A stretch of DNA of 27,722 nt, from the IMG/VR virus record IMGVR_UViG_3300020442_002968, positions 1 to 27,722 of that record; one strand, written 5' to 3'. The stretch comes from a virus. Below the pieces are notes generated by a model, which did not search any database, was not told the origin of the DNA, and worked only from the letters and a program-made list of their open reading frames with translations. The position numbers were made by a program, and so were the translations under genes. Position 1 is the stretch's first letter; every line of letters begins with the position of its first letter. This document shows, piece by piece, positions 339 through 17,090 of this stretch.

Positions 339-740
339 ATGCCTACTCAGAGGGTTTCTCGCGCTTTTAAGGATATTAGTTTCTCATTTGATCCACATCC
401 AGTGACGAAGGACCTCCCTGTACTGGTTAATGCGCGTGCTATCACCAGATCAATTCGTAATTTAGTTGAAACCATTCCAACTGAAAGGTTTTTTAACTCT
501 AAACTGGGTTCTGATGTACGTAAAAGTCTCTTTAACTTCGTTGATGTTGCAACTGCTAGTGTAATTCGTACTCAAATCATAAACACAATCAAATTTTACG
601 ACCCAAGAGTCGAAAATTTGCGTGTTCAAGTTGATCCAAGACCTGATGATAATAGTTTTAATGTCATAGTTTTCTTTGACATTGTGGGACAAGACCTCCC
701 ATCACAACAGTTTTCATTCATATTAGAATCGACAAGGTAA
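339..740 (+). CDS. gp25: Baseplate wedge subunit gp25 (gpW/gp25 family)
   Basis: The product is 133 aa, almost the same length as T4 gp25 (132 aa). It follows the family pattern of an N-terminal segment, a central NARAITRSIRNLVETIPTER helix and strand, then 'RFFNSKLGSDVRKSLF', which matches the 'RPFDPEFGCDLSDQLF' region of T4, and then 'YDPRVENLRVQVDP', which matches 'YEPRIDKLAVNVIP'. In T4 and other contractile systems gp25/gpW sits in the wedge core next to the gp6-gp7 bundle and links the baseplate to the first sheath ring. The single available ATG at 339 gives the correct length. No ribosome binding site precedes it in the short promoter-derived leader. gp6 begins three bases after its stop, so the two are co-transcribed. 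Confidence 0.93.
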   Translation: MPTQRVSRAFKDISFSFDPHPVTKDLPVLVNARAITRSIRNLVETIPTERFFNSKLGSDVRKSLFNFVDVATASVIRTQIINTIKFYDPRVENLRVQVDPRPDDNSFNVIVFFDIVGQDLPSQQFSFILESTR

Positions 741-743
741 AAT

Positions 744-2645
744 ATGCCTTTTACACAGTTTACCAATCTAGATTTCGATCAAATCAAGACTCAAATCAAA
801 GATTATCTTCGTGCAAATTCAAATTTCACGGATTTTGACTTTGAAGGGTCTAATTTTTCTGTCTTGATTGACACTTTAGCATACAATACGTACATCAATG
901 CGTTTAACGCTAATCTTGTCGTAAATGAATCGTTCTTAGATGCAGCAACAGTACGTGAGAATGTTGTTTCCCTTGCTAGAAACATCGGGTATGTACCACG
1001 CTCTAAAACCGCTGCTACGGCGAATGTGACATTCACAGTACCCACTACCACTAGTAGCGGTTTCATCACCCTTACAGCGGGTCTGGTGTGTGTTGGAGCA
1101 TTTGATAACACATCATATCGCTTCTCAATTCCAGAGGATATAACTGCTCAAGTTGTTAATGGACAAGCACAATTTGGCACTACCGATAAACCTGTTAAAA
1201 TATATCAAGGATCATCACTCTCAAGACAGTTTTTAGTCAATACATCAACTGATCAAAGGTTCGTTATTGATAACCCTAATGTTGATTCCTCGACAATTAG
1301 AGTTTATGTGAAAGGTATTAATGATAGTGGACTTGGAAGAGAGTATCGTAGAGCTGATAATATATTAGAAGTAGATAAAAATTCAGAAATCTACCTCATT
1401 CAAGAGATTCAAGATGAAAAATATGAACTCTTGTTTGGTGATGGTTACTTTGGAAGACCATTAGAGAACAATGCTATCATCACCGTAAGATATATCATCA
1501 CTGAAGGCAAAGCAGGTAATGGTCCATCACAATTTAATTTTCAAGGTAATTTTGTAGATGAAAAAAATCTAAGAGTAATCCCCACTGATACAATCAATGT
1601 AACCACCACTCAGAAGGCGATGAACGGTGGTGATATTGAGAATGTGTCCTCTATCAAGTATTTTGCTCCTAGACTCTATGCAGCTCAATCTAGAGCGGTT
1701 ACAGCGAGGGATTATGAAGCAATCATTCAATCGATTTACCCAACTACCGAATCTGTAGCGGTTGTTGGTGGTGAAGAGTTAAGTCCGCCAAAATTTGGAA
1801 CGGTTCAAATAAGCATCAAACCAAAAAATGGTACATATATTTCGGACTTTGATAAGCAAAACATTTTAAATAAACTGAAGCAATATGCTATTGCAGGAAT
1901 CAATCAAAACATAGTTGATCTTAAAGTTCTTTATGTTGAAATTGATTCTTCAATTTACTTCAACAATAATCAAGTTTCCGATGTTGATGATTTAAGAACA
2001 AGTGTTGTAGATGCATTATCAATCTATTCACAAGATGTTGATATTAATAAGTTTGGTGGAAGATTTAAGTATAGTAAGATGCTTCAATTAATTGATAGAG
2101 TTGATTCTGCAATTACTTCTAATATAACAAAAGTAAAAATTAGAAGAGATTTAAGAGCACTTACTAATCAATTTGCACAATATGAATTGTGCTTTGGTAA
2201 TAAGTTCCATGTGAATCCAAAAGGTATGAATATTAAGAGTACCGGTTTTAAAATTGCAGGAGATCCCTCAACAGTATTTCTTACCGATACTCCAAGTGAT
2301 ACAAAAACTGGCGTTCTCTCTGTTGTAAAACAAACAAGCACCGGTCAAAGAATAGTTGTTAGTAAAGATGCCGGAATAGTTGATTATGAAAAGGGAGAAA
2401 TAATTCTAAACACAATTAATATTGTAGAAACTTCTCTTTCAGATAATATTGTTGAAATTCAAGCATTCCCAGAATCAAATGATATTGTTGGACTGAAAGA
2501 TCTTTATCTCAGTTTTGATGTTTCAAATAGTACAATAAATATGATTAAAGATGTTATTGCATCTGGTGAAGATATTTCTGGCGTTTCTTTCACGAGAGAT
2601 TACTATACTTCAAGTTACTCAAACGGAGCATTAGAGAGGAAATAA
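744..2645 (+). CDS. gp6: Baseplate wedge subunit gp6 (Baseplate_J family)
   Basis: The product is 633 aa; T4 gp6 is 660 aa. The N-terminal 120 residues are characteristic: 'DFDFEGSNFSVLIDTLAYNT' at about 32-51 aligns with 'DYDFEGSRLNVLCDLLAYNT' in T4, followed by 'ESFLDAATVRENVVSLARNIGYVPRS', which matches 'ESFMRTANLRSSVVQAAQDNGYLPTS'. Further on, 'ARDYEAIIQSIYP' and 'VQISIKPKNG' match T4 'ATDYDTFVSERFG' and 'AFIAAKPKSG'. Two gp6 copies plus one gp7 form the heterotrimeric wedge core in T4, and gp6 dimers form the inner ring of the baseplate; P2 gpJ is the equivalent. The start is supported by AAGG at 734-737, six bases before ATG. The first 500 bases use CGT/CGC arginine codons more often than the rest of the operon. 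Confidence 0.93.
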   Translation: MPFTQFTNLDFDQIKTQIKDYLRANSNFTDFDFEGSNFSVLIDTLAYNTYINAFNANLVVNESFLDAATVRENVVSLARNIGYVPRSKTAATANVTFTVPTTTSSGFITLTAGLVCVGAFDNTSYRFSIPEDITAQVVNGQAQFGTTDKPVKIYQGSSLSRQFLVNTSTDQRFVIDNPNVDSSTIRVYVKGINDSGLGREYRRADNILEVDKNSEIYLIQEIQDEKYELLFGDGYFGRPLENNAIITVRYIITEGKAGNGPSQFNFQGNFVDEKNLRVIPTDTINVTTTQKAMNGGDIENVSSIKYFAPRLYAAQSRAVTARDYEAIIQSIYPTTESVAVVGGEELSPPKFGTVQISIKPKNGTYISDFDKQNILNKLKQYAIAGINQNIVDLKVLYVEIDSSIYFNNNQVSDVDDLRTSVVDALSIYSQDVDINKFGGRFKYSKMLQLIDRVDSAITSNITKVKIRRDLRALTNQFAQYELCFGNKFHVNPKGMNIKSTGFKIAGDPSTVFLTDTPSDTKTGVLSVVKQTSTGQRIVVSKDAGIVDYEKGEIILNTINIVETSLSDNIVEIQAFPESNDIVGLKDLYLSFDVSNSTINMIKDVIASGEDISGVSFTRDYYTSSYSNGALERK

Positions 2646-2648
2646 AAT

Positions 2649-5600
2649 ATGTCGCATTTTGATAGAAAGTTGCAAATCAATAAAATTATTGAGAGTCAAC
2701 TTCCAGAATTTTTAGTTGCCGAATTTCCAAAGGCGGTAGATTTTTTCAAGCAATATTATATTTCTCAAGAAAATCAAGGTGCCCCCGACGATTTAATTAC
2801 TAATCTTGACAGATATCTTAAATTAGATAATTTAATTCCAGAGGTTCTAATTGGAAAGACTACTCTTTCTAATGATATCACTTCTTCAGATACTACTATC
2901 ACTGTATCTTCTACAAAGGGTTATCCAGAGGAGTATGGTCTTTTAAAGATTGGCAATGAGATCATTACTTATACATCAAAAACTGATACTGAGTTCTTAG
3001 GATGTATTAGAGGATTTTCAGGTATTGATGGTTATAAGGATAATATTGAAAGAGATTTTAATAATGTAAACAAACAGACAGTATCTTTTTCCGACACTGA
3101 AGCAGAATCTCACACTCAAGGGGATAGTGTATCTAATTTAAGTTCACTATTTTTACAAGAGTTTTATAAAAAAATTAAAACTGCATTTGCTCCAGGATTT
3201 GAAAATCAAAAATTTGTTTCTGATTTAGATGTAGCAAATTTTATCAGACAAATTAAAGACTTTTATCAAGGTAAAGGTATTGCAGAATCGATAAGAATTC
3301 TTTTTAAAGTTCTTTATGGTGTTAAAGCAGATGTTCTGGATCTGGAAAATAGACTTATAAAATCATCTGGTGCAGAATATCTTAGAAGAGAAGTAGTCGT
3401 TGCAGAAATTATTTCTGGTGACCCATTTGAACTTGAAGGTCAAGCAATCTATAGATCTCTTGACGACTCCACAATTCCTATTGCTACAGCATCTGTATCT
3501 AATGTAGAAGTTTTTACAAGAGATGGTAAAACATATTATAAACTCGAACTCTTTGTAGGATATGATGACAATTCAAGTTTTGAAAACGCATTTATTGTAC
3601 CTGGATTTACAAAAGCAATAGAATCTGCTGCAATAGGTACAGACGTAATCACTGTAGATTCCACGATTGGTTTTGATAGCTCTGGAACTATTATTTCTGG
3701 AAATAATACGATTAACTTTACTTCAAAGAGTATAAACCAATTCTTTGGATGCACTGGAATTACTGAGGCAATTGATGCAACTGATGAAGTTAGATCTGAA
3801 GTATTTGTTTATGGATTTGGTAATGGAGATCCAGAAAGAAAAGTAACTATCCGTTTGACTGGAGTTTTAAATAATTTTGTAGAGATTGATACTGTTTCTC
3901 TTTTAGAAAATGGGGAAGAAATTAGAGTATTATCTTCTGGAGAAAATATTCAAAATCCAGAAAATAATGCTTCTTATAAAGAAATTTTTGCTAACTCTTG
4001 GATTTACAATACTAGCTCAAGATATTTCGTTGAGTCTATCAATGGTTCAACATTCACATTATCCTCTAAAATTGATAAATCAAGTTTAAAAGTTGGAGAT
4101 ACTGTTGATGTAATGGTTGGTGCTGCTTTATCCGCCTCCAACGCCACAATTACATCAATTAACAACACACTTAATCAAGTTGTCATCAGTAACTTAGGTT
4201 CATTCGTTGGAAGCCCTTTCTATGATTATAGTATCAGAAGAAAAATTGAAAAGGTTACAAGTTCAAATGTTCCGTTAGTTTTAGGAAACGATAAGTATTT
4301 TGCCAATGTTCAAAATCTTTATTGTAATGACAATTCTACCTTTGGATATGTTACGTCACTTTCTTTACCTGAATATGATATTGAAGATTCTATAATTGAA
4401 GCACAACTTTCAGATGGAAAAGAAACAAATTTTGAGGGATATAATACAGTTAATAAAACATATTCAGTATTAAAATTTTCATCTGCAGTAAACTTTATTG
4501 ATGGTGATAGAGTTAGGTATATTTCAGACAAACCTCTTGTAGGTTTGCAGTCTGGAGAATCTTATATTGTTGATGTAGTTGCATCAAACAAAATTAGACT
4601 TTATGTTTCTAGTTCCTTACTATTAGATGGAACTGATTATGTCGAATTTAATGAAAATCCAGATACTTCTGCAACACATACATTTACATTATTATCTCAA
4701 AAATCTAGATTAATATCACCATCATCAATATTAAGAAAATATCCACTTGATAGGGCAATAACAAACTCAGACAATTCTGATAGAGGAACTTTACACATTG
4801 GTCAACTAATTGATGGAGTTCAGATTTTAAGTCCTAAGTCGAGTGATAAAATTTATTTTGGACCTTTAACAGACTTTGAAGTCTTTAATGGTGGCATGAA
4901 TTATGATGTAATTAATCCTCCACAATTAGTTGTTACTGCTGGAGCTGGTTCTTCTGCTCTTGTAGAACCAATTATTTCTGGTTCCGTTTCAGAAGTTTTG
5001 ATTGATCCACAAAACTTTGATGTTAGTGGAATTACAGCGATAACATTAGAAGGTGGTAATGGTAGTGGATGTATTTTAGAACCTGTAATTGGTGATAGAT
5101 TTAGAACATTAGAATTCGATAGTAGAGCACTTGGACTAGGTGGTGGTATTGATATCAACGACGAAACAATAACTTTTCTTAAACCACACAATTTAGTACA
5201 ATTCCAAAAAGTTACTTATAACTCAAATGGAAACACTGAAGTTGGTATTGGTGATTTCCAAGATCCGACAAATACTCTTGATAACAGACTTGTATCTGGC
5301 GAGGAATATTTTATTAGGTTGGTGAACACATCAACTATTAAACTTTTTAATAATTTTTCAGATGCTTCTGCTGGCATCAATACAATTGGATTCGCTGCTG
5401 CAACTACAGAGAGTGGTATTCATCAATTTAGAACTATTCCAACTCCAACTCTCAAAAAAGTTAAAATAGTAAATTCAGGTTCTGGATATCAGCATAGAAA
5501 ATTAAGAGTTAAGTCTTCTGGAATATCAACTCAATATAATAAATTAACTTTTAAAAATCATGGATTTAATAGTGGAGACATTGTTGAATACTCTACTGAG

Positions 5601-8600
5601 GAAACATCTGAAGGAAATCAATTAATTCCCGATCTTTCAACGAGTAATCAATATTCAATTCAAAAACTCGATAATGACAATTTTAGATTAATTGATGTTG
5701 GTGTTGGTGCAACACTTACAAATGATTTGATAAGATCTAAGCATGTGGAAATATCTGGTATTGGTTCTGGATATCATGTTTTCCAATATCCACCAATTAC
5801 AGTATCTGCAACTGTTTCTTTCGGTTCAACTTTAACTGGAACTCTCAATTTCACACCAATTGTCACTGGTCAGATTGTAGATTCATACATGTATGAGACT
5901 GGTACTGGATATGGTTCTACTGTATTAAATTTACAAAAACAACCAATTGTTAGCATAAAGAATGGTAGACTTGCACAGTTAAATCCAATCATATCAAATG
6001 GGAGAATTATTGAAGTTCAAATACTTGGTTCCGGAAAAGAATATTTCTCTACTCCAGAGTTAATTGTTGAAGACAAAGATAATGTTGGCACTGGTGCAAT
6101 ATTAAGACCAGTAGTTGTTGACGGAAAAATTGATGATGTAATTGTTATTAATGAGGGTATTGGATACGATCCAAACACCACGACCATTAGAGTAAAACCA
6201 AGAGGTTCGGGTGCTATTTTTAACACCAAGATTAGGAGTCTTTGTGTAAATGATGCCGAAAGATATGCACAGTATTCTATTTTAAATAATCAAAAAATAT
6301 TTGGAAGTCTAAGGGAAAATGCTGCTGAAGATGGATTAGAATATTCTGTTTATGGGTATTCTGAGGATTTGGCAAATGTCTTTGATGATAATCTAAACAC
6401 CAATCATTCTAAAATTATTGGTTGGGCATTTGATGGTAATCCAATTTATGGACCATATGGATACACCGATGCAGATAATATTCAATCTGGAATATCTTTG
6501 ATTACTCCTGGTTATTCTTTAGATCCATCTTCGGTTTTTGATAGACCAAGCACATCTACATTTGGACCGGGATACTTTATTGATGATTATAAGTATGCTG
6601 ACAATGGAAAGTTGGATGTTCATAATGGAAGATTCTGCAAAACTCCAGAATTTCCTAACGGAATTTATGCATACTTTGCAGGTGTAACAACCAGTAATGT
6701 TGTTAACAAACTTGTTCCACAATATCCATATTTTGTCGGAAATACTTTTAAATCAAAGATTGATGAAGATAATTTGTATTTGGATCAGTCATTTGATTTT
6801 AATAATTCAGATCTGGTCAGAAATGTATTCCCATATAAGATTGCTGATAAAAATGCAGATTATGATTTTATTGATGAGGGTTATGAAACTTTCCCACAAA
6901 GAACTTTTGTTACTTCCGTCACTAGAGGTTCTATAGAAAAAATTAATATTCTTTCTGGCGGTAAAGATTATAAGGTAGGAGATAAAGTTAATTTTGATCA
7001 GACTGAATCTGGTGGTTCTGGACTGTCGGTTGAAGTATCTGAACTCGTAGGTAAAAATCTCACCACAATTGATACAAATTTAGATCAATATCCAAACTCA
7101 GTTTTTGTTCGTGATAGTGAATTCCAAGTATCAGCATATTTTAGAAGTGGATTTGATGTTAATAACAATGAGAATATTTTAGTCAGTGGATTAACAACAT
7201 CCATCTTAAATCTTAAAGGAAATCATAAAGCAGGAATTTCTTCAGATACTGTTGGTCTTGCAGCAACAATGAGTTCTCATACCACAAATGGTGGTATAAC
7301 TGAAGATATTTTTATAGATCAATTAGCAAATATTTCTGTTGGAAGCACTATTGTTATTCATTCTGATGATGGTAGTACCGTAACAGATGAAACTGTAAGA
7401 GTTCTGAATAATTATGGTACTGGTGTTGTCAAAGTCAAAAGATTTGGAAATACTGGTGTTGCTCATACTCTTGGCAGTGAAGTTAATATAATTCCAGATA
7501 GAATTAAAATTCAAGCAAAGACACCATATTTTAAATCATCACGTTCTAAACTAGTCTATTTTAACGCAGATAATGCAGTTGGATTTGGAACCACAACCAA
7601 TGGTGCAATTCAAAAGACTATTACTATTGGTGGTGTAAGCAAAGTAATTCAGATTCCAACTAGAACAATTTACGTTCCCAATCATGGATTCAAAACTGGT
7701 GAGGAACTTTCATTTAGTATGAATGATAGTGCAGTTACTGGTGCTAATGTTCTTATTGTTTCAAACGAATCAAATTCAACTCAGTTTAACTTACCTGATA
7801 ATAGAGCAACTACAGCAACTGTATATGCTATTAATAAAGGTCCAAACTATATCGGATTAACAACTACAGTAGGTCTCTCAACTTTTACCGACGGACTATA
7901 TTTCCGTAGTGGAGGATCAGATAATGCAGAATATTTACTTAAGAATAATCCATCACAAGTTATTGGTGATGTTGATAGAATTATCACCACTGTTAGTGCC
8001 TCTTCAACACATGGATTGAGAAATAATGACGTAATCACTCTTGAAGTAAAACCAAACACTATTGTTGGACTTGGAACAACTGCTGCAGCTACTGTAGTAT
8101 TCAAGGAAAGAACAAAATCATTGGTAATCAATCCTGTTGGTATTAATTCTAGTGCAATTGATACAGCAACAAATACAATTACTCTTACTAATCATGGATT
8201 TGAAACTGGTGAAAAAATTTATTATGAGAGCACAGAAGTTGCAACAGGATTAACTACAGGTGCATATTATGCTATAAGAGATGGTAGAAATACATTTAGA
8301 CTCGCAGAAACTTTATACGAATCAAATCCAAACACAGAAAAAGTAATTAATATTGTTGGAACAGGTGCAAGTATTCATACTCTTGCTAAAATCAATCCAA
8401 GAATTGATGTCATCAAAAATTCTGACATTAAATTCCTTCTGGGTGATCCCTCTCTCAGTGGTTATAACTTTAAAATTTTCTATGACCAGAATTTTAAAAA
8501 TGAATTTATAACATCATATGGTGACACTAACTTCAACGTTGAAAAAATTGGTGTTGCTGGAGTTGGAACTGCATCATTAACTTTAAAATATTCAGAAAAT

Positions 8601-11600
8601 ATTCCAGCAAGACTTTTCTATGCAGTAGAGAAGGGAGGATATATTAGTACTGCAGATACTGATATTAGAAATTATTCCGAAATTAACTACCAAAAGAGTG
8701 AATATAATGGAACTTATAATATTAGTGGTGTCACTTCAACGACCTTTAATGTTTCTCCGTTCAAATTACCATCTGTACTGAAATATAATGTTAGAGAGGA
8801 ATGTGATGAAGCATCATATAGAACTAAATCAAATACTGCAAGAAGTTCTATTGGGTCTGTCAAAATATTATCTCCAGGATTTAATTACCAAAGATTACCA
8901 GTATTTACAGATGTTTCTTCCGAGAGTGGAATAAATGCCAATTTAGTTGCAATTTCAACAACCATTGGTAAACTGAATAAATTTAGAATTGATAATATTG
9001 GATATGCTTATCCTTCAGATAAAACCTTAAGACCTGAAGCATCACTTCCTACAAGACTTAATATTGATAATCTTGACACTATCTCTAGATTTAATATTAT
9101 AAGTGGTGGTTTAAAATATATTACACCTCCAAATCTTTTACTTTGGAATGACACAAGTAATTTTATTGTAGATGATTCTTCTTTATTACCCATCATACCA
9201 AATACAACAATTTTAGATGTTGAACAAATTGCACCAATTCGTGGGTTAGAATCAGAACCTCACAGAATAGTTGCAATAAACAATTCGAATGGTGTTGGAA
9301 TTAGTTCTATTATCTCTGGACCTAGTGGAGTTGCATCATGCACATTGAAGACTCCTGTTTTAGGATTTACCACAGCACTTTTTGCAGATGGTGATGAAAT
9401 TTTTGTTGAAGGTATTGAATTAATAGGAACTAATGGTCAAGGATATAATTCTGAAAATTACAACTATAGATTCTTCAAAGTTGATAGTTTTGTCAATTCC
9501 AATCCAGCACAACTTACATTCTCACTTGTGGATGAAAATGGTGTTGGTCTAACAACTAATCCAGGTATTGCAAAAACTAATCAATCTGGATATGCAACTA
9601 TTATTAACAAAAAAGATTATCCAGATATTGAAGTTATTCAATCTAGATCATCATTTGAAATAAATGAAGGTTTATTTGTTGATAGTGGATCTGGTTTTGT
9701 GGAAACTGATGCATTTGTTTCTTTAGTAAGATCTGACTTCATCAAAACAGTTGGACCTCAAAATTTCCAAACTGGAGATAAGGTTAAGGGAAAAGTTACT
9801 GGAACTATTGCCGAAATTATCTCAATTGGTAAAGATAGAGCTAAGTTCAGTATCAGTTATTCTTCCAGACAAGAGTCTGGATGGAAAGATGATAGGGGCA
9901 AATTGAGTGAAGATTATCAAGTTACCCCAAATAATGATTATTATCAAAATCTTTCTTACTCTGTAAAGAGTCCTATACCATGGTCTGTAATGTCTGGACC
10001 AGTCAACTCTATCGTTCACCCCGCAGGCATGAAGAATTTTGCCGATGTTGGCATTACATCATCGGTGAATAGTGCAGTTGGATTGGCAGGTACTACTACT
10101 GCAATAAGTGTTCTTGATGTTTCTAGTGAATCTAGAGTTTGGACTATTAATAATTTTGATATATCAGTTGATGATGATGTTAGAACAACAACTTCTGGTG
10201 CTAAGCAGTCTAAGTTCCTCAAAATTGGCAATAGAAAATTAGCAAATTATACAGAATGTAGAACTAATAGAGTTCTTATTCATGATGATATTAGTGGTCA
10301 GTTTTCTAGTAAAGGATTCCAAGGTACTTCAATAGAAATTGAAGAAATTGATATTAATGACACAAATGTCAAGTATTTAATCCAAATTATAAATCCAGAC
10401 ACTCTTGATGTTCAGATTTCAGAGTTAATTGCACAAACAACAACTCTTGATACATATCTCTTTGAAAAAAATCTTGCAGTTTCTGCAGGACTATCCACAA
10501 ATACCAATAATAAACTTGGAGAATTTTCTCTTAATGTCCAGAACGGTATAAAAACTTTATTGTTCACACCATCAGATCCTTTTGATATTGATTTAGACAT
10601 TAAAGTTCTTAAAAAAACATATTCAAATTCTTTTGCAGGAATCGGAACTCATACTGTTGGATCAATTGATTTAGTCAATTCAAATGTTCTTGGTATTAGC
10701 AGTGTAGGAACTGCATCTAGTGAAAAACCATTATATCAAATTGACTCTACAGACTTCAATGCTGCGTTTATAAGTATTGAGATGATCAATCGATTTGATT
10801 TAGGTGACTTTGTAAATATTGAAGCATTTGTTGATTTTGATGGTACTGATACTTATCTAAGTGAGTATTATTTTGATTCTAATAGTCTTTCTTACAGTTC
10901 TTCAAACGTTGGTATTATAACCACAGTATATGATGGTGTAGGAATTATCACTGTTAGTGTTAAAAATCCAGGTATTGAAACATCTACTTATGATGTTCGT
11001 TCAAGTATTATTGAATTTACACAATCTGGAGTAGATGATACATATAGGTTCTTAAGAAGCGGACAACCTGCAGGATCTGAAAGAAGTGCCCTATTTGACT
11101 GTGTATCTGACACTCATGTAGGCATTACAACCATTGCAGAATATAACAAAAATGTTATATCTTCAGTTTCCTCGATTGTTAGAGTTTCTGTTGGATCAAG
11201 TTCGGCAATACATCAGGTAACTGCCTTGTGTGATGGTTCAGAAGTTACTGTTATACCTGGAATGTTTGTGGCAACCACTGGTTCTGCAGGATTAGGTTCA
11301 TTTGGTGGTAAGATTGTAGGTAGTAACTTCTTTGTTAATTTCTATCCAGATGATAGTTCTGTAAACTACTCAACCCAATCTTTTAATGAAGTATTCTATA
11401 CTTCAAATGATTTTGATAATGTACCAAATACTTTAGTATATAATTCAATTGAACAAGACTTATTCCTTTCGTCTTTCGATTCCCTTAATGGATCTAGAGC
11501 AAATAGGACTGCGTTTAATCTGAGACATGAAGGTGTCCCCATTTATCAAAAAGTCTTTAACCCAGCAGATACTACTGCCCTTGATCCAGTAACAGGAATC

Positions 11601-14600
11601 TTTACTATTAAAGATCACTTCTTCAACACTGGTGAGGAATTAACTTACACTCCAGGATCTACATTTATTGGTGTTGGACAAACAGAAGTTGGTATTGGAG
11701 AGACTTCAAATTATCTCGGTGTTGTTGTAGATCAATTACCTGAAAAAGTATATCCGATTGTTATTAATGCCAATACTTTCAGATTAGCAACAACCAGAGA
11801 ATTTGCAAACTTGGGCATTGGAGTAACCTTTACAAACCTTGGTGAGGGTAATGCCCATAAACTTGATGTCACTAAAAAATTATCTAAAACTGTTATCAGT
11901 CTTGATGGCATTGTTCAACAACCAATTACATTTACTCCAGTTTCACATATTCTTGAAAATAATGGTTTCTTTAATGTTGCCGGAGTTGGAACAATTCCTG
12001 TAGGTCTTTCAACCTTTAATATCAGTGGTATTTCTTCTATTCAACCAAGAGATTTGATTAAGATTGATGATGAGTATATGAAGGTTGTTGAAGTTGGTCT
12101 CAGCACCAACGTTGCGGGAGAACTTCTTGGACCAATCAATGGAATTATTCAGGCAGGATCTGCAGCGACATTTAATACTGTATCCGTTGTCAGAGCGTCT
12201 GTTGGATCCACTGCTGCTCCACATGATGATGGTGCAAATGTGCAGGTATTTAAGGGTTCATTTAATATTGTAGATTCCAAAGTACACTTTACTGATCCTC
12301 CTACTGGAAGTGCTAGAACACGAAGAGATGATAGTAATCTTCCTTTCGTAACTTCAGTATTCTCAGGAAGAACTTTCTTGAGATCTAACTATGATACCAA
12401 CATGGTATTTGATGATATATCAAATCAATTTACCGGAGTTGGTCAGACTTTCACAATGAAAGTTGGTGGTGCAAATACAACAGGTGTTGATATTGGAAAT
12501 GGTATTCTGTTCTTGAATGGTGTTTTCCAAACACCAACCACTATTAATAATCTTGGTAATAACTATAAATTTGAAAACTCAAGTGCTCTTGGAATTTCCA
12601 GTGTTGTATTCTCTGGTATTACTTCAGAGAATGGTTCATATATACAATCCGATTTTGATATAAATCAAAACCAATTGCCTAGAGGTGGACTGATTGTATC
12701 TCTTGGTTCAACACCAGGTCTTGGATATGCACCACTTTATGGTGCAAAAGTAAAGGCAGATTTAACTAATGGTGCAATTAGTGATATTGTTGGTGTTAAT
12801 ACTTATCGCAAACCTGTAGGTATCACAACCGCAGACTATGATCATATTACAGGTGTTATTGAGATTGAAACCAGTTCAAATCACTACCTGAAAGGTGGTG
12901 AAAGAGTTCAACTGGTCGGTCTTCACTTTACGTGTGCTCAAGCACACGCTGGTGTAACTACAACAGTATTCCCAGATCATGATCGCTCTTTTGATATTGT
13001 AAATATTCTTTCTGCCAATAAACTGACAGTTCAGGTTGGACCTAGTACAATTATTCATAATTATGTTGGATTTGGTAGCGTATTTAAGCACTTCTCACTC
13101 TCCAATGGTTCTGGTTACAGAGATCCAGTTTCTATTGGTGTTACTGACTTAGCATTTGATCATAGATTTGTTCGTTCCGTTTCAGATTCAATCTTTGTTG
13201 GTTCTGCAGGAACTAGCACATTCACAGCAACTAATGCAGAATACACATCACATACCGGAAAACTATTATTAACTATTCCATCACATGGTTTAACAGTTGG
13301 AAATCAAATTGGTATTGATACTGGTGGAATTATCTTTACATGTTCCGAAGACAACTTCTTTACAGAACAACCATATCCAAGAGCAACTGATCCAATCGCT
13401 GGTATTACCACAGAAGTTACATCAGTAACTACTAACACTATCACAGTTAATGTCGGTCCTGGTGGTGGTGCAGGAACAGGTGCTCAGGTTTCTGCAACGG
13501 TTGGTATAGGTGGAACATTAATCTTTAGTATCGATAATCCTGGTTCTGGTTATGTAAATCCAAGAATTCAAATTCCAGAACCAACATATGAGAACATGGA
13601 AGTTGTGGGTGTCTCAAGACTTGGTATTGGTGCAACCACAGAAACAGGTGAAAATCTTTTACTGAATGTAACTATTGGTGCAGCAGGCACTAATGTTGGT
13701 ATTGGTTCAACTCTCTTTGAGGTAGAATCTTTCAACATTAGAAGAAATGGATATGCATTCCAAGTTGGAGACGTATTTAAGGTATCTGGTCTTGTTACAG
13801 CATCACATCTGAGTCAACCAATTTCAGAATTTGAACTTGAAGTTACTGAAACTTTTAATGACTCAATGTCTGCATGGTCATTTGGTGAGATGAACTACAT
13901 TGATAGTATTGAAGCATTCCAGAATGGTTCAAGACAAAGATTCCCACTAATCTATCAGGGAGAACTTCTGAGTTTTGAATTGGATCCCAACAATGCACTT
14001 TCAAATGAAATTGATTTGAATGCGGTTTTAGTTATTTTTGTTAATGGTGTTCTTCAGCAACCTGGTTCTTCTTATACATTTGATGGTGGCACATCATTCA
14101 TATTTGAACAGGCACCATCAGATTCTGATAAGATTGATATTTTCTTCTATCTTGGACAGGACGGTGTTGATGTTCTTATCGTTGATATTGATGAAACATT
14201 CAAGATTGGTGATGAGATTCTTGTTAAAAAGCATCCAGGTTTTGTATTAACGCAGGATCAAAATAGAGATAGAACTATTCTTGATATCTTATCTGCAGAT
14301 AAAATTGAAACTGACATCTATACTGGTCCAGGAATCAATGAAAATGATTTCAAACCTCTTAGCTGGACTAAGCAAAAACTTGATAAATTTGTCAAAGGTG
14401 ATTTTGTTTATAAGACAAGAGATTCTATTGAACCAAGAGTTCTCCCAGTAGCGAAAGTGATTGGTGATGTCGATGGAAGTTCTAACGAAATTTTTGTTGA
14501 TAATGCACAGTTCTTCAACTATGAAGAAAATAATTATGCTATTTCAATCAATGCTTTAAAAGGACTACTTGTAGAAGGAGTCGATCCAGTTTCTGCTGCA

Positions 14601-15497
14601 ATCACGGCAACCGTTAGCGCAGCATCGACACTAGTTCCTGGTACAATTGGTGCTCTTACAATCAATAATGTTGGTTCTGGTTATTCTGGTTCCACACTTG
14701 ACCTTAAATTTACCGCGCCTCCATTCGGTATTGGTGTTGGTATTGGTACAACTGCAACTGCTACAGTAAGTATTGTAAATGGTTCTGTTGATTCTGCAAC
14801 TATCACAAATCCAGGTTTTGGTTACTCTCTTGCCAATCCTCCTCAAGTAATTGTTGAAGTTCCTAAAGGAAAGCAAGAATTGGTTGAGAGTATTACGAAC
14901 ATTGAAGGATTTACTGGTATCATCACTGGAATCAGCACAACTGCAGGCAGTGGTGATTGTGGATTGGCACTTAATATTGATTATGATCGTATTGATTTTT
15001 CTAATAATTCAAGCGCAACAAGTAGTTTGCTTGCAGGATATCCAGTCTACATTTATGACACTTCAGTTGGTAATGGAGTAACCACTGTTGATGGAAATGA
15101 TAACTCTACCGTTGGTATTGGAACTACATTCTTAGATGCCGTCTATATGGTACATGCCGTTTCAAATAGCGGAAACAAAGGTAGAATAACTTGTAACATC
15201 CATTCAAATACAAACATTGTTGGTATTGCAACAACAGGAAGTTACGCAGCAAATAATCCTGACGCAACAATTTCCGCAGGTAGGATATCTTGGGGAAAAT
15301 TATATAATGCAGTTGATGGCATATCTAGAACCAATCCAATTTCAATAGGAGTAACTGGTCTCACAATTGATTCTGGATTGTCCACATTCCCATCAATTCA
15401 AAGAAGAGACTTTGGATTTAAGAATAGTGGTGCATTAAGGAAGACATCAAATGGTCCTGATGCGTCTGAAAACTCCTCTGGTTTTATTATATTATAA
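2649..15497 (+). CDS. gp7: Giant gp7-like baseplate wedge protein (4282 aa) with YHYH domain and repeat arrays
   Basis: This intact frame lies between gp6 and gp8, where T4 has gp7 (1032 aa). An AGGA site (2637-2640) precedes ATG by eight bases. Residues about 190-305 resemble the C-terminal core of T4 gp7: 'FYQGKGIAESIRILFKVLYG' (205-224) against T4 'FYSTKGIEASYKFLFKVLYN', then 'FELEGQAIYRS' against 'EDLVGQTIYTA'. A second core segment, 'NDYYQNLSYSVKSPIPW' followed by VHPAGM (2456-2461), matches T4 'IDYINRSRSYYVMKIKS' with FVHPVGF. In T4 these segments are about 140 residues apart; here about 2230. The intervening part holds a YHYH domain (about 1240-1366), 'GSGY' modules and 'HG[FL]' modules, and about 1800 further repeat-rich residues follow. 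There is no T4-like gp7 N-terminal part. No transmembrane or signal segment is evident. It probably forms an enlarged wedge with an outward extension. The gp7 assignment is strong for the core; the function of the added parts is unknown. Confidence 0.82.
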   Translation: MSHFDRKLQINKIIESQLPEFLVAEFPKAVDFFKQYYISQENQGAPDDLITNLDRYLKLDNLIPEVLIGKTTLSNDITSSDTTITVSSTKGYPEEYGLLKIGNEIITYTSKTDTEFLGCIRGFSGIDGYKDNIERDFNNVNKQTVSFSDTEAESHTQGDSVSNLSSLFLQEFYKKIKTAFAPGFENQKFVSDLDVANFIRQIKDFYQGKGIAESIRILFKVLYGVKADVLDLENRLIKSSGAEYLRREVVVAEIISGDPFELEGQAIYRSLDDSTIPIATASVSNVEVFTRDGKTYYKLELFVGYDDNSSFENAFIVPGFTKAIESAAIGTDVITVDSTIGFDSSGTIISGNNTINFTSKSINQFFGCTGITEAIDATDEVRSEVFVYGFGNGDPERKVTIRLTGVLNNFVEIDTVSLLENGEEIRVLSSGENIQNPENNASYKEIFANSWIYNTSSRYFVESINGSTFTLSSKIDKSSLKVGDTVDVMVGAALSASNATITSINNTLNQVVISNLGSFVGSPFYDYSIRRKIEKVTSSNVPLVLGNDKYFANVQNLYCNDNSTFGYVTSLSLPEYDIEDSIIEAQLSDGKETNFEGYNTVNKTYSVLKFSSAVNFIDGDRVRYISDKPLVGLQSGESYIVDVVASNKIRLYVSSSLLLDGTDYVEFNENPDTSATHTFTLLSQKSRLISPSSILRKYPLDRAITNSDNSDRGTLHIGQLIDGVQILSPKSSDKIYFGPLTDFEVFNGGMNYDVINPPQLVVTAGAGSSALVEPIISGSVSEVLIDPQNFDVSGITAITLEGGNGSGCILEPVIGDRFRTLEFDSRALGLGGGIDINDETITFLKPHNLVQFQKVTYNSNGNTEVGIGDFQDPTNTLDNRLVSGEEYFIRLVNTSTIKLFNNFSDASAGINTIGFAAATTESGIHQFRTIPTPTLKKVKIVNSGSGYQHRKLRVKSSGISTQYNKLTFKNHGFNSGDIVEYSTEETSEGNQLIPDLSTSNQYSIQKLDNDNFRLIDVGVGATLTNDLIRSKHVEISGIGSGYHVFQYPPITVSATVSFGSTLTGTLNFTPIVTGQIVDSYMYETGTGYGSTVLNLQKQPIVSIKNGRLAQLNPIISNGRIIEVQILGSGKEYFSTPELIVEDKDNVGTGAILRPVVVDGKIDDVIVINEGIGYDPNTTTIRVKPRGSGAIFNTKIRSLCVNDAERYAQYSILNNQKIFGSLRENAAEDGLEYSVYGYSEDLANVFDDNLNTNHSKIIGWAFDGNPIYGPYGYTDADNIQSGISLITPGYSLDPSSVFDRPSTSTFGPGYFIDDYKYADNGKLDVHNGRFCKTPEFPNGIYAYFAGVTTSNVVNKLVPQYPYFVGNTFKSKIDEDNLYLDQSFDFNNSDLVRNVFPYKIADKNADYDFIDEGYETFPQRTFVTSVTRGSIEKINILSGGKDYKVGDKVNFDQTESGGSGLSVEVSELVGKNLTTIDTNLDQYPNSVFVRDSEFQVSAYFRSGFDVNNNENILVSGLTTSILNLKGNHKAGISSDTVGLAATMSSHTTNGGITEDIFIDQLANISVGSTIVIHSDDGSTVTDETVRVLNNYGTGVVKVKRFGNTGVAHTLGSEVNIIPDRIKIQAKTPYFKSSRSKLVYFNADNAVGFGTTTNGAIQKTITIGGVSKVIQIPTRTIYVPNHGFKTGEELSFSMNDSAVTGANVLIVSNESNSTQFNLPDNRATTATVYAINKGPNYIGLTTTVGLSTFTDGLYFRSGGSDNAEYLLKNNPSQVIGDVDRIITTVSASSTHGLRNNDVITLEVKPNTIVGLGTTAAATVVFKERTKSLVINPVGINSSAIDTATNTITLTNHGFETGEKIYYESTEVATGLTTGAYYAIRDGRNTFRLAETLYESNPNTEKVINIVGTGASIHTLAKINPRIDVIKNSDIKFLLGDPSLSGYNFKIFYDQNFKNEFITSYGDTNFNVEKIGVAGVGTASLTLKYSENIPARLFYAVEKGGYISTADTDIRNYSEINYQKSEYNGTYNISGVTSTTFNVSPFKLPSVLKYNVREECDEASYRTKSNTARSSIGSVKILSPGFNYQRLPVFTDVSSESGINANLVAISTTIGKLNKFRIDNIGYAYPSDKTLRPEASLPTRLNIDNLDTISRFNIISGGLKYITPPNLLLWNDTSNFIVDDSSLLPIIPNTTILDVEQIAPIRGLESEPHRIVAINNSNGVGISSIISGPSGVASCTLKTPVLGFTTALFADGDEIFVEGIELIGTNGQGYNSENYNYRFFKVDSFVNSNPAQLTFSLVDENGVGLTTNPGIAKTNQSGYATIINKKDYPDIEVIQSRSSFEINEGLFVDSGSGFVETDAFVSLVRSDFIKTVGPQNFQTGDKVKGKVTGTIAEIISIGKDRAKFSISYSSRQESGWKDDRGKLSEDYQVTPNNDYYQNLSYSVKSPIPWSVMSGPVNSIVHPAGMKNFADVGITSSVNSAVGLAGTTTAISVLDVSSESRVWTINNFDISVDDDVRTTTSGAKQSKFLKIGNRKLANYTECRTNRVLIHDDISGQFSSKGFQGTSIEIEEIDINDTNVKYLIQIINPDTLDVQISELIAQTTTLDTYLFEKNLAVSAGLSTNTNNKLGEFSLNVQNGIKTLLFTPSDPFDIDLDIKVLKKTYSNSFAGIGTHTVGSIDLVNSNVLGISSVGTASSEKPLYQIDSTDFNAAFISIEMINRFDLGDFVNIEAFVDFDGTDTYLSEYYFDSNSLSYSSSNVGIITTVYDGVGIITVSVKNPGIETSTYDVRSSIIEFTQSGVDDTYRFLRSGQPAGSERSALFDCVSDTHVGITTIAEYNKNVISSVSSIVRVSVGSSSAIHQVTALCDGSEVTVIPGMFVATTGSAGLGSFGGKIVGSNFFVNFYPDDSSVNYSTQSFNEVFYTSNDFDNVPNTLVYNSIEQDLFLSSFDSLNGSRANRTAFNLRHEGVPIYQKVFNPADTTALDPVTGIFTIKDHFFNTGEELTYTPGSTFIGVGQTEVGIGETSNYLGVVVDQLPEKVYPIVINANTFRLATTREFANLGIGVTFTNLGEGNAHKLDVTKKLSKTVISLDGIVQQPITFTPVSHILENNGFFNVAGVGTIPVGLSTFNISGISSIQPRDLIKIDDEYMKVVEVGLSTNVAGELLGPINGIIQAGSAATFNTVSVVRASVGSTAAPHDDGANVQVFKGSFNIVDSKVHFTDPPTGSARTRRDDSNLPFVTSVFSGRTFLRSNYDTNMVFDDISNQFTGVGQTFTMKVGGANTTGVDIGNGILFLNGVFQTPTTINNLGNNYKFENSSALGISSVVFSGITSENGSYIQSDFDINQNQLPRGGLIVSLGSTPGLGYAPLYGAKVKADLTNGAISDIVGVNTYRKPVGITTADYDHITGVIEIETSSNHYLKGGERVQLVGLHFTCAQAHAGVTTTVFPDHDRSFDIVNILSANKLTVQVGPSTIIHNYVGFGSVFKHFSLSNGSGYRDPVSIGVTDLAFDHRFVRSVSDSIFVGSAGTSTFTATNAEYTSHTGKLLLTIPSHGLTVGNQIGIDTGGIIFTCSEDNFFTEQPYPRATDPIAGITTEVTSVTTNTITVNVGPGGGAGTGAQVSATVGIGGTLIFSIDNPGSGYVNPRIQIPEPTYENMEVVGVSRLGIGATTETGENLLLNVTIGAAGTNVGIGSTLFEVESFNIRRNGYAFQVGDVFKVSGLVTASHLSQPISEFELEVTETFNDSMSAWSFGEMNYIDSIEAFQNGSRQRFPLIYQGELLSFELDPNNALSNEIDLNAVLVIFVNGVLQQPGSSYTFDGGTSFIFEQAPSDSDKIDIFFYLGQDGVDVLIVDIDETFKIGDEILVKKHPGFVLTQDQNRDRTILDILSADKIETDIYTGPGINENDFKPLSWTKQKLDKFVKGDFVYKTRDSIEPRVLPVAKVIGDVDGSSNEIFVDNAQFFNYEENNYAISINALKGLLVEGVDPVSAAITATVSAASTLVPGTIGALTINNVGSGYSGSTLDLKFTAPPFGIGVGIGTTATATVSIVNGSVDSATITNPGFGYSLANPPQVIVEVPKGKQELVESITNIEGFTGIITGISTTAGSGDCGLALNIDYDRIDFSNNSSATSSLLAGYPVYIYDTSVGNGVTTVDGNDNSTVGIGTTFLDAVYMVHAVSNSGNKGRITCNIHSNTNIVGIATTGSYAANNPDATISAGRISWGKLYNAVDGISRTNPISIGVTGLTIDSGLSTFPSIQRRDFGFKNSGALRKTSNGPDASENSSGFIIL
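2859..3780 (+). repeat. Two copies of an 'IGNEIITY...GC.RG' beta module in the gp7-like protein
   Basis: Copy 1 (about residues 71-128) reads 'DTTITVSSTKGYPEEYGLLK' then 'IGNEIITYTSKTDTEFLGCIRG'-like sequence. Copy 2 (about residues 325-377) reads 'TDVITVDSTIGFDSSGTIIS' then 'NNTINFTSKSINQFFGCTGI'. The two share the order 'TxITVxSTxGFxxxGxI', then a polar strand ending in YT or FTSK, then FxGC. A related third copy lies in the DUF4815 protein at about residues 2051-2110 ('YAKIANEIVEYSGI' then 'IVTRGVDSTT'). The segment between the two copies holds the gp7 core. Confidence 0.6.
5559..13292 (+). repeat. Dispersed 'HG[FL]xxGE' modules in the gp7-like protein
   Basis: Eight or so units have a strand, then NHGF-TGE-like sequence, then a strand, then a Y-x-I/V and N-x-FRL segment. 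The histidines lie at residues 971 (NHGFNSGD), 1679 (NHGFKTGE), 1788 (THGLRNND), 1849 (NHGFETGE), 2990 (DHFFNTGE), 3412 (NHYLKGGE) and 3546 (SHGLTVGN), with a weaker copy near 848 (PHNLVQF). Units at 971, 1849 and 2990 continue with 'Y.I.k.d.dnFRL' or 'inanTFRLA'. They look like beta-sandwich building blocks of a long fibre-like extension. The family name is unknown to me. Confidence 0.65.
6366..6745 (+). other. YHYH domain embedded in the gp7-like protein
   Basis: Residues about 1240-1366 of the giant protein show the signature of the YHYH domain family: 'HSKIIGWAFDGNPIYGPYGY', whose glycine G1258 precedes W1259 and D1262, then 'GKLDVHNGRF' with H1325, then 'KTPEFPNGIYAYF', and finally 'QYPYFVG'. 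This order (GxAxDGxPIYGPYG, LDxxNGRF, TPExPxGxYxY, PYFxG) is the family pattern. YHYH domains are mostly known from bacterial secreted or surface proteins and have no settled function. Where the family often has Cys before NGRF, this copy has His. Confidence 0.8.
11901..14075 (+). repeat. Three 'NGVxQxP' modules near the C-terminal part of the gp7-like protein
   Basis: 'LDGIVQQP' (residues 3085-3092), 'LNGVFQTP' (from N3290) and 'VNGVLQQP' (from N3799, followed by 'GSSYTFDGGTSFIFEQAPSD') share a hydrophobic strand, an Asn/Asp-Gly turn, V-x-Q-x-P, and a following Y-x(F)-G-x-F strand pattern. Units of this type recur in phage fibre and appendage proteins. The third copy is the most complete. 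Confidence 0.6.
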
Positions 15498-15503
15498 ACC
15501 CCA

Positions 15504-15511
15504 TATAAATA
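15504..15511 (+). promoter_or_regulatory. T4-type late promoter for gp8
   Basis: Exact TATAAATA in the 33-nt gap between the gp7-like gene and gp8. By T4 spacing the transcript would start near 15517, leaving about 14 nt of A-rich leader (AAAACATATAAGCA) with no Shine-Dalgarno-like tract before the ATG at 15531. It offers a fresh start for gp8 and the DUF4815 gene after the 12.8-kb gp7-like gene. Confidence 0.85.
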
Positions 15512-15530
15512 CATAAAAAACATATAAGCA

Positions 15531-17090
15531 ATGTCAGCTATTGTTACCGATCAATTTAGAATTCTGAATGCAGGCAATTTTGTCGAATCGGTTGAAAATT
15601 CTTCTAACTCATACTATGTTACTGTAGGTCTCCCTAATCCGACTATTGTTGGATATGGAAGAAGTTCTACATGGAATACTAATCCACCCGCACCATTAGA
15701 CAATCAAACCAACAATTCACATGCTGGTGACGTTGTACTGTTTGGTAAAAAAATATCTTCTGCTAACGTAAAGCGAATTGTTAGAAGAATTGATTGGGTT
15801 GCTGGAAGTAGATATGAAATGTACAGAGATGATTATAGTATTGCATCTCCATCACCATTAACTAATGCAGCAAGATTATATGATGCAAACTATTATGTTA
15901 TTAACTCCGATTTTAGAGTTTATATTTGTATAGAAAATGGTTCTAGTGGTACTAATCCTAAAGGAAACGTATCTCAAGATGAACCAACTTTTACAGATTT
16001 AGAACCAACTAGAGCTGGCACTAGTGGTGATGGTTATATTTGGAAATACTTATTTACAGTTTCTCCTAGTGATATTATCAAATTTGACTCTACAGAATAT
16101 ATTACTTTACCAAGTAATTGGACAACAACAACTGATACTCAAATACAAGCAATAAGAGATTCTGCTAATTCCCAAGTTAATCTTAATCAAATTAAAACTG
16201 TTTATATTGATAAAGCTGGCTCAGGTTATGCTGGTGGATTGAGTCAGGAGATGAATATTATTGGAGATGGAAGTGGTGGCAAAGTCAGAATTGATGTTGA
16301 AAGTGGCAAAATTACAAATACCATAGTCACTGCAGGTGGAAATGATTATTCATATGCCCTTGTAGATCTTGGATCTATTAACTCCAGTACAGGTGGTTCA
16401 AGTGCAAAACTTGTACCTATAATTCCTCCTGCAAGGGGTCATGGTGATGACATTTATGTGGAATTAGGTTCTGATAAAGTTTTAGTCTACGCTAGATTTG
16501 ACGATTCAACCAAAGATTTTCCGGTTGATACCAGTTTTGCACAAGTTTCTATTATAAAAAATCCAACGGCAGTTGGGACAAATAATATTTTTACAGGTTC
16601 AACTTTTAGTGGATTGAATTCTATAAAATTCTCATCTGTCGTTGGAACTCCTCAAATTGGAGAAAAAATTGAGCAAAGTCTTGTAAGTGGTGTAGGGAAA
16701 GCATATGGATATGTTTCCTCTTATGATACTGAAACAAAGGTGCTTAAATACATACAAGATCGTTCATTATATTTTAATCAAACTACCTTAGATCATCAAG
16801 ATTATGTTGGAATTTCTACTAATGGTAGAAATTATGCTTTTGAATCTAGTGCTAACGAAATTACTGGACAATCATCTGGATTTAAGGGTTCCGTAGATCG
16901 TAATTTCTCTGGTATCACTACAAATCCAACAGGAAGTAAACTTATCAATCTCGGTGTTAACTTCTCAAGCGGCATGGCCGTTCCTGAAATAAATAAAGGG
17001 TCAGGACAATTAATTTATCTTGATAACAGACCTAGTATTGCTAGGAATTTGAGACAAAAAGAAGACATCAAAATTATACTGGAATTCTAA
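15531..17090 (+). CDS. gp8: Baseplate wedge subunit gp8, enlarged
   Basis: The product is 519 aa; T4 gp8 is 334 aa. The start 'SAIVTDQFRILNAGNFVESV' corresponds to T4 'RAIVTSKFRTEKMLNFYNSI', 'VGYGRSSTWN' to 'ITFGRSEPWS', 'GDGYIWKYLFTVSPSDIIKF' to 'GDGYVWEYLFEIPPDVSINR', 'AQVSIIKNP' (ending about residue 345) to 'RQISIITNP', and the C-terminus 'GQLIYLDNRPSIARN' to 'GEMIYMENRPPIIMA', ending in 'EDIKIILEF' against 'EEINILFTF'. gp8 is a dimer in the T4 wedge and contacts gp6, gp7 and gp10. Compared with T4, two insertions stand out: residues about 220-335, containing 'GSGY' units, and about 345-485, containing 'AYGYVSSYDTETKVLKYIQD'. No ribosome binding site precedes the start, which follows a late promoter closely. 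Confidence 0.92.
   Translation: MSAIVTDQFRILNAGNFVESVENSSNSYYVTVGLPNPTIVGYGRSSTWNTNPPAPLDNQTNNSHAGDVVLFGKKISSANVKRIVRRIDWVAGSRYEMYRDDYSIASPSPLTNAARLYDANYYVINSDFRVYICIENGSSGTNPKGNVSQDEPTFTDLEPTRAGTSGDGYIWKYLFTVSPSDIIKFDSTEYITLPSNWTTTTDTQIQAIRDSANSQVNLNQIKTVYIDKAGSGYAGGLSQEMNIIGDGSGGKVRIDVESGKITNTIVTAGGNDYSYALVDLGSINSSTGGSSAKLVPIIPPARGHGDDIYVELGSDKVLVYARFDDSTKDFPVDTSFAQVSIIKNPTAVGTNNIFTGSTFSGLNSIKFSSVVGTPQIGEKIEQSLVSGVGKAYGYVSSYDTETKVLKYIQDRSLYFNQTTLDHQDYVGISTNGRNYAFESSANEITGQSSGFKGSVDRNFSGITTNPTGSKLINLGVNFSSGMAVPEINKGSGQLIYLDNRPSIARNLRQKEDIKIILEF
16218..16349 (+). repeat. 'GSGY' module pair inside gp8
   Basis: GSGY at residues 230-233 and GGNDY at 269-273 of gp8 are spaced and decorated as in the gp7-like protein: 'GDGSGGKVRIDVESGKITN' links them. 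In T4 gp8 the corresponding place, before 'RQISIITNP', holds only a short loop, so this is an inserted module. Confidence 0.7.

Follow-up and report, generated by a model that had tools for sequence, protein, structure and literature searches.

In phage T4, gp7 is a monomer that occurs six times per baseplate and takes part in a strictly ordered assembly of the wedge; its domains contact gp10, gp8, gp6 and gp9, and a swivelling of domain A accompanies the change of baseplate shape (PMC3004832). For the cyanophages the literature is in conflict over the existence of this protein, because one study calls T4 gp7 absent in pelagi- and cyanomyophages and apparently substituted by VrlC (PMC7029224), whereas a core-protein table of 2017 has entries for gp7 in the cyanophages, with 4-7% similarity to DLP6 (PMC5349666). 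In PMC3037559, gp7 is one of the core genes termed non-cyanophage. The name is already found in sequence records, as gp7 (P-SSM2, P-HM2) or as baseplate wedge initiator (S-SRM01, S-CAM9 and several ACG-2014f), and PHROG classes the family of these giant proteins (phrog_2885) as a baseplate wedge subunit. The gp7 of PMC10966104 is a neck protein with a likeness in name only, and two cyanophage evolution experiments report mutations in structural genes that are not resolved to the gp7 protein (PMC9910659, PMC6224464).

The stretch of DNA analysed here (the window) spans the 27,722 bases of an IMG/VR record from an ocean virus and carries a T4-like baseplate operon on the + strand. Its genes are, in order, gp25, gp6, an ORF of 4282 aa, gp8 and a VrlC/DUF4815 protein of 2456 aa; after these come a protein of 566 aa and the beginning of gp13. 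The named records that match segments of the window are mostly Synechococcus and Prochlorococcus phages, with a few from Acinetobacter, Stenotrophomonas and others. We conclude, with a probability of about 0.9, that the 4282-aa protein is the gp7 of a cyanophage-like relative of T4, with a core that is split by an insert of about 2000 residues and with some 1800 further residues after the second half.

Layout of the 4282-residue protein

The ORF is open throughout and lies between gp6 and gp8, the place of the gene for the wedge initiator gp7 (Table 1). The motif LFKVLYG starts at aa 218 and VHPAGM at aa 2456. From LFK to HP this amounts to 2239 residues (218, 2457), against 137 in T4 gp7 (747, 884), in agreement with the original prediction, which had put the two segments about 2230 residues apart here and about 140 in T4; by HMM positions, the spacing of the segments (A and B in the following) is 2228. 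The predicted insertion of roughly 2000 residues between A and B was recovered as well, but it is not the sole expansion: the helical part holds another of about 100 aa, and about 1800 aa follow B. The right border of the main insertion is uncertain (about aa 2311-2410), and DNA repeats within the ORF are short and diverged.

Table 1. Features of the baseplate operon in the window and parts of the 4282-aa protein
Feature	Position	Strand	Evidence or content
gp25, baseplate wedge	339..740	+	PF04965 E 3.1e-10; phrog_261 E 2e-48
gp6, baseplate wedge	744..2645	+	PF21379 E 5.7e-18; phrog_219 E 7.6e-199
Probable giant gp7 (baseplate wedge initiator), 4282 aa, 462.6 kDa	2649..15497	+	phrog_2885 E 0; hold-out HMMs
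Helical core, first part, aa ~10-65	2676..2843	+	hhalign and blastp
Smaller insertion in helical part, aa ~66-163	2844..3137	+	gap against compact gp7s; one C module at aa 77-124, E 6.5e-24
Segment A, aa ~164-325	3138..3623	+	second helical part with KGIAES-LFKVLYG, then the initial barrel strands (T4 domain V)
Main insertion, aa ~326-2409	3624..9875	+	C, H and G modules and YHYH domain
YHYH domain, aa 1225-1355	6321..6713	+	PF14240 E 1.5e-26 at aa 1232-1350
Segment B, aa ~2410-2480: NDYYQNLSYSVKS...VHPAG	9876..10088	+	HMM and profile comparison; T4 counterpart YVMKIKSNLPSSRWKSDVIRFVHPVGF
C-terminal extension, aa ~2481-4282	10089..15494	+	one H module at aa 2979-3028, one G module at aa 4000-4059
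gp8, baseplate wedge, with G module	15531..17090	+	PF09215 E 4.8e-15
VrlC/DUF4815 baseplate protein, 2456 aa	17094..24464	+	PF16075 E 2e-50; PDB 9euf ORF65 E 1.1e-42

The first helical part is also tied by blastp to DLP6 (7-65 on window aa 10-68), and Pfam Baseplate_wedge (PF23786) gives a match below its cut-off at window aa 192-229 (E 5e-5 for the fragment). The gp7 of Melnitz carries an insertion at about the same place of the helical part as the ~100-aa insertion of the window. As a source of the C-terminal tail we considered the fusion of neighbouring small genes and rejected it, for neither S-CRM01 g6 and g7 nor Melnitz 162-164 matched any member of the gp7 set by blastp at E 1e-3. A comparison of the full giant protein with PDB sequences (phmmer) returned zero matches at E<=1. 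The solved relative of the VrlC/DUF4815 protein (17094-24464), ORF65 in PDB 9euf, is a possible template for the periphery of the baseplate.

Two halves of one gp7 core

We built hold-out HMMs from compact and mid-size gp7s only (six seeds for A, seven for B; giants, T4 and the window left out) and ran them on 788 ORFs and reversed ORFs from the window and 19 loci, with E-values scaled to 10,000 sequences. Within the window they matched solely the giant ORF, A at aa 198-245 (E 2e-4) and B at aa 2418-2474 (E 3.9e-7). Over all sources the gp7 gene was matched by A in 20 of 20 and by B in 18 of 20, the two missed being T4 and D525; the noise level is given by one reversed sequence at 0.0058 with A, the sole non-gp7 match. 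Both segments were located by these models in S-SZBM1, S-CREM1 and S-H34 too.

Single short proteins connect the two segments as well. The PHROG profiles phrog_26741 (497 aa; at 84-191 and 369-443) and phrog_17744 (765 aa; at 64-133 and 667-748) align A and then B, and blastp ties both segments of Mendera (503 aa), ACP17 (482), pf16 (523), BUCT-ZZ01 (607), Melnitz (896), phiM9 (903), DLP6 (1288) and S-CRM01 (1454) to the giants. In hhalign comparisons (pairwise E-values) the giants align with the compact forms at 4.4e-24 for A (window aa 6-317 on Mendera 1-200) and 1.4e-13 for B, and with T4 directly at 8.8e-9 and 2.1e-3, while 48 compact and mid-size forms align in order with the T4 family at 2.4e-14 (A) and 2.2e-4 (B). 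Segment B against T4 alone is weak (hhalign probability 13-45), and the direct match carries weight because of the intermediates and the order of the segments. The T4 counterpart of A is gp7 ~644-828 and that of B is YVMKIKSNLPSSRWKSDVIRFVHPVGFGFIAIT, directly after Pfam domain V (766-861). The Pfam profiles of T4 gp7 domains V and VI (PF21427, PF21456) found no match in the window, although the initial portion of domain V lies within the profile alignment; the best alignment to T4 stops shortly past B, where domain VI follows in T4.

The hold-out HMMs, hhalign, the PHROG profiles and the order in the survey described below thus uphold the proposal that both segments are parts of one gp7 core, with A before B in one chain as in T4. 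The proposed kinship to P2 gpI fared differently, as the profile comparison that placed both segments in order on T4 gp7 gave nothing significant for 48 gp7s against the single P2 gpI sequence (hhalign, E 0.22). Among the fold-comparison rows listed gpI did not occur either, which does not speak against a kinship. The large N-terminal part of T4 gp7 had been predicted to be missing, and indeed 640 aa are without a detectable counterpart in the window: T4 1-640 and an HMM of five sequences found no match in 15 gp7s that are not of the T4 type, window included. As judged from sequence comparison, the window protein shares the gp7 core but is not a T4-type (Straboviridae) gp7, being devoid of the N-terminal ~640 aa. 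T4 gp7 (PDB 5iv5, 5hx2) has the same gene position and the same succession of helical part, KG...LFKVLY segment, barrel domain and HPxG segment; it differs by the short LFK-HP distance, by its own 640 N-terminal aa and by having no tail of 1800 aa.

Predicted structures are consistent with this picture. For a compact contig gp7 (L222, 592 aa), AF2 with 48 sequences gave a model with a pLDDT of 59.9 and a pTM of 0.41, in which residues ~141-240 are near 90. Three of its 627 Foldseek matches to the PDB reached E<=0.001: 9f4a_A0, 5iv5_BJ and 5hx2_A, all chains of T4-type baseplates and, from chain length and numbering, presumably gp7. VIA-align 2 scored these three at Z 11.2, 11.2 and 8.7 (rmsd 17.4, 17.6 and 16.0; 184, 175 and 183 residues aligned), with the next row at Z 5.9, and placed model residues 52-387 on chain residues 683-898, which covers both segments. 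Many of the lower Foldseek rows are EF-Tu-type barrels, with 65-83 residues aligned over model ~140-328, as if barrel strands might lie on both sides of the spacer between A and B. The window's own model (aa 1-500; pLDDT 56.0, pTM 0.33) is poor and has T4 chain 5iv5_BJ as its first PDB match, though at no better than E 4e-3 (probability 0.38). The models would be consistent with an insert that exits from a loop of the barrel domain while the core fold is kept; the packing of A on B is unproven, because the rmsd is 16-18 A and the confidence of the model is modest.

Spacing, modules and origin of the insertion

We surveyed the related loci (the best 80 of 145, 246 and 203 confirmed stretches) with A and B models of 13 seeds each, the window among the seeds; the set is redundant, as certain phages occur twice, and the window was counted separately. 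Of the ORFs with A, 217/261 also contained B, always after A and in one copy each, at a spacing of 228-2405 aa: 228-310 in 59 compact forms, 383-632 in 103 mid-size forms, 854-1139 in 3 intermediates and 2197-2405 in 52 giants. The remaining 44 comprise 38 that run off the 3' end of their stretch, one closed contig ORF and 5 closed ORFs in named records, which by elimination are of the T4 type; B alone was found in 2 ORFs. Spacings beyond the survey are 1664 in S-H34, about 2664 in S-CREM1, 2792 in S-ShM2 and 2840 in S-SZBM1. Because of these four further cyanophages, S-H34 in particular, the series is graded and the survey gap between 1139 and 2197 is not real. Scans of viral contigs yielded 3 loci with the S-CRM01 gp7 and 1 locus with the ACP17 gp7 as query.

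A close likeness is to the cyanophage gp7s of phrog_2885 (P-SSM2, P-HM2, S-SRM01, S-CAM9, ACG-2014f), which share family and split with an A-B spacing of 2197-2405; they differ by diverged sequence, by an off-centre YHYH domain in P-HM2 and by a longer tail in P-SSM2 (5195 aa). S-ShM2_093 (6198 aa), S-SZBM1_208 (6619 aa) and S-CREM1_163 likewise hold A and B in one ORF, but with about 500 aa more ahead of A, a spacing of ~2664-2840 and YHYH nearer to A. The compact gp7s of Mendera, ACP17, pf16 and BUCT-ZZ01 (482-607 aa) have both segments in order, the first two with G modules at the site of the insert; their spacing is only 252-310, and YHYH, H and C modules were not found in them in the module survey. 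The Melnitz-type gp7s (~900-1030 aa; Methylophilales phage and viral contigs) share the insertion in the helical part and differ by a spacing of 439-476 and the lack of YHYH.

Labels and segments do not always coincide in the records. In S-ShM2 both segments lie in the 6198-aa SShM2_093 (L266:17910-36506), labelled 'virion structural protein', and the gp7 label 'baseplate wedge initiator' is on SShM2_094 (573 aa; L266:36531-38252), which has neither segment and does have YHYH. Two genes of S-SZBM1 are labelled 'baseplate wedge initiator', 208 (L269:21249-41108) with both segments and 205 (615 aa; L269:16260-18107) with neither; a G module is present in the latter.

The insert was searched with G, H and C modules that were built iteratively from window seeds, reversed copies serving as control and giving zero matches. 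G, a GxGY beta module, occurs between A and B in 32/59 compact, 102/103 mid-size and 2/3 intermediate forms, in all 52 giants and in the window. Within the survey, H is limited to giants (between A and B in 51/52, and in the window) and C to giants and 2/3 intermediates. Because compact relatives already have G at this place, the long forms would seem to have arisen by strong expansion at a site tolerant of beta modules. The G module is common to gp7 and gp8 of the window phage, and it is found in gp8 of Mendera and S-CRM01 as well, which hints at an exchange of modules between adjacent baseplate genes.

The YHYH domain was found in 52/52 giants and in the window (94 bits, against a PF14240 cut-off of 25) but not in any of the survey's 165 shorter forms; S-ShM2, S-SZBM1, S-CREM1 and S-H34 (1942 aa; E 2.8e-10) have it too. 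It lies at a fraction of 0.482-0.512 of the A-B interval in 52/53 long forms of the survey, window included, a constancy that goes with their shared ancestry. It is off centre in 5/57 long forms in total: P-HM2 (0.35), S-ShM2 and S-SZBM1 (~0.27 each), S-CREM1 (~0.29) and S-H34 (~0.37). H1253, D1262, D1313 and D1323 are invariant in 55/55 aligned copies, and the position of H1325 is His in 43/55. The Tyr-x-Tyr-x end, the motif that gave the domain its name, is YAYF in the window, with Phe as last residue in 55/55 copies. A published prediction makes YHYH a metal-dependent hydrolase whose Zn site consists of three His and one Asp (PMC7824862). Because here one His is invariant, a second is found in 43/55 copies and the motif ends in Phe, binding would seem at least as likely as catalysis. 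A piece of ~52 bases within the domain (6414-6466) is 96% identical to ACG-2014d records, the sole piece to match those in a megablast of 744-17090; it is possibly a recombination patch or the result of codon-level constraint.

A gp6 tree (FastTree, 81 of 188 gp6 sequences, rooted on T4 types) has compact forms at its base, the Melnitz-type forms as sister group of the cyanophage clade, and 20/20 giants within a single 21-tip clade (local support 0.983), the remaining tip being S-CRM01. The split is thus general in the cyanophage clade; since the giants fall together, the most likely place of origin of the large insert is the cyanophage lineage, in which its length then changed further. Purifying selection acts on the insert, for the most part a little less strongly than on aa 1-310: the dN/dS of the insert is 0.14-0.20 in the five closer of seven comparisons (2056-2057 of 2057 codons aligned) and 0.31-0.36 in the two distant ones, the values for aa 1-310 being 0.06-0.17 (close) and 0.19 (distant).

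Readings of the split core and their meaning

In the reading that we prefer, the core (helical part, A, barrel domain and B) is homologous to T4 gp7 residues ~644-890, and between its barrel strands and B some 2000 residues were inserted, made up of repeated beta modules and a single YHYH domain. The two halves would fold together as in T4. The insert would leave the barrel as an arm on each of the six wedges, and arm and tail may replace the peripheral scaffold role of the missing N-terminal domains of T4 gp7 by touching VrlC, gp8 and the fibres, and signals from the fibres would in this way reach the wedge core; insert and tail would form an outer scaffold that couples the fibres and VrlC, encoded two genes downstream, to the wedge. 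That the giant form belongs to the particle is indicated by S-SZBM1_208, in which the hold-out HMMs find A (E 2.1e-16) and B (E 2.1e-14) and which was detected in virions by mass spectrometry with 71 peptides at 13.5% coverage (PMC9146016). S-CREM2 ORF122 (1937 aa by its coordinates) was reported from virions with 91 unique peptides (PMC10665884).

The statements on gp7 absence with VrlC as substitute (PMC7029224) and on a non-cyanophage core (PMC3037559) would suit a scenario in which gp7 was lost in cyanophages and replaced by VrlC, and in which the 4282-aa ORF encodes some unrelated structural protein that bears the motifs by chance. We hold this to be very improbable in view of the hold-out HMMs, the profile comparison, the gene order and the 217 ORFs with both segments, and VrlC is encoded by a separate gene of the same operon. 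The protein could also be a gp7 that is processed in the virion, with insert or tail cut off and A and B assembling separately. Its size and the partial peptide coverage published for S-SZBM1_208 leave some room for this, but the length of the insert is nearly constant among close relatives, its sequence is under purifying selection, and the Pfam and PHROG matches of the full protein include no intein or protease, which makes such cutting improbable. Comparably small is the chance that the long form is ancestral and that the compact and T4 forms were derived by deletion. The position of S-CRM01 (A-B 1139) inside the giant gp6 clade and the spacing in S-H34 speak for it to the extent that lengths inside the clade must have shrunk or grown in parallel; the basal position of the compact forms in the T4-rooted gp6 tree and the union of the tree's 20 giants in one clade argue against it.

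Starting from the preferred reading of a split gp7 core, one may imagine the insert of the window's clade as an arm that runs out and back, with ~1040 residues up, ~1060 down and YHYH at the tip, six such arms being cast in one piece with the wedge core. We consider this particular shape improbable, as the off-centre YHYH in 5/57 long forms speaks against it; if true, a tip touching the cell envelope would exert a direct pull on the core responsible for triggering sheath contraction, with no chain of separate connector proteins, unlike in T4.

For the split of the gp7 core we found no describing paper in the open-access literature; the name gp7 was already present in annotations. The cutting of the core in two by the insert may be the reason that gp7 has been reported missing from cyanophage-like viruses. 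A core that is split but present, with 137 to ~2840 residues between its halves across the relatives, settles the identity of gp7, predicts the place where a large density would join the baseplate, and shows in what way the rebuilding of an internal wedge protein can spare its core.
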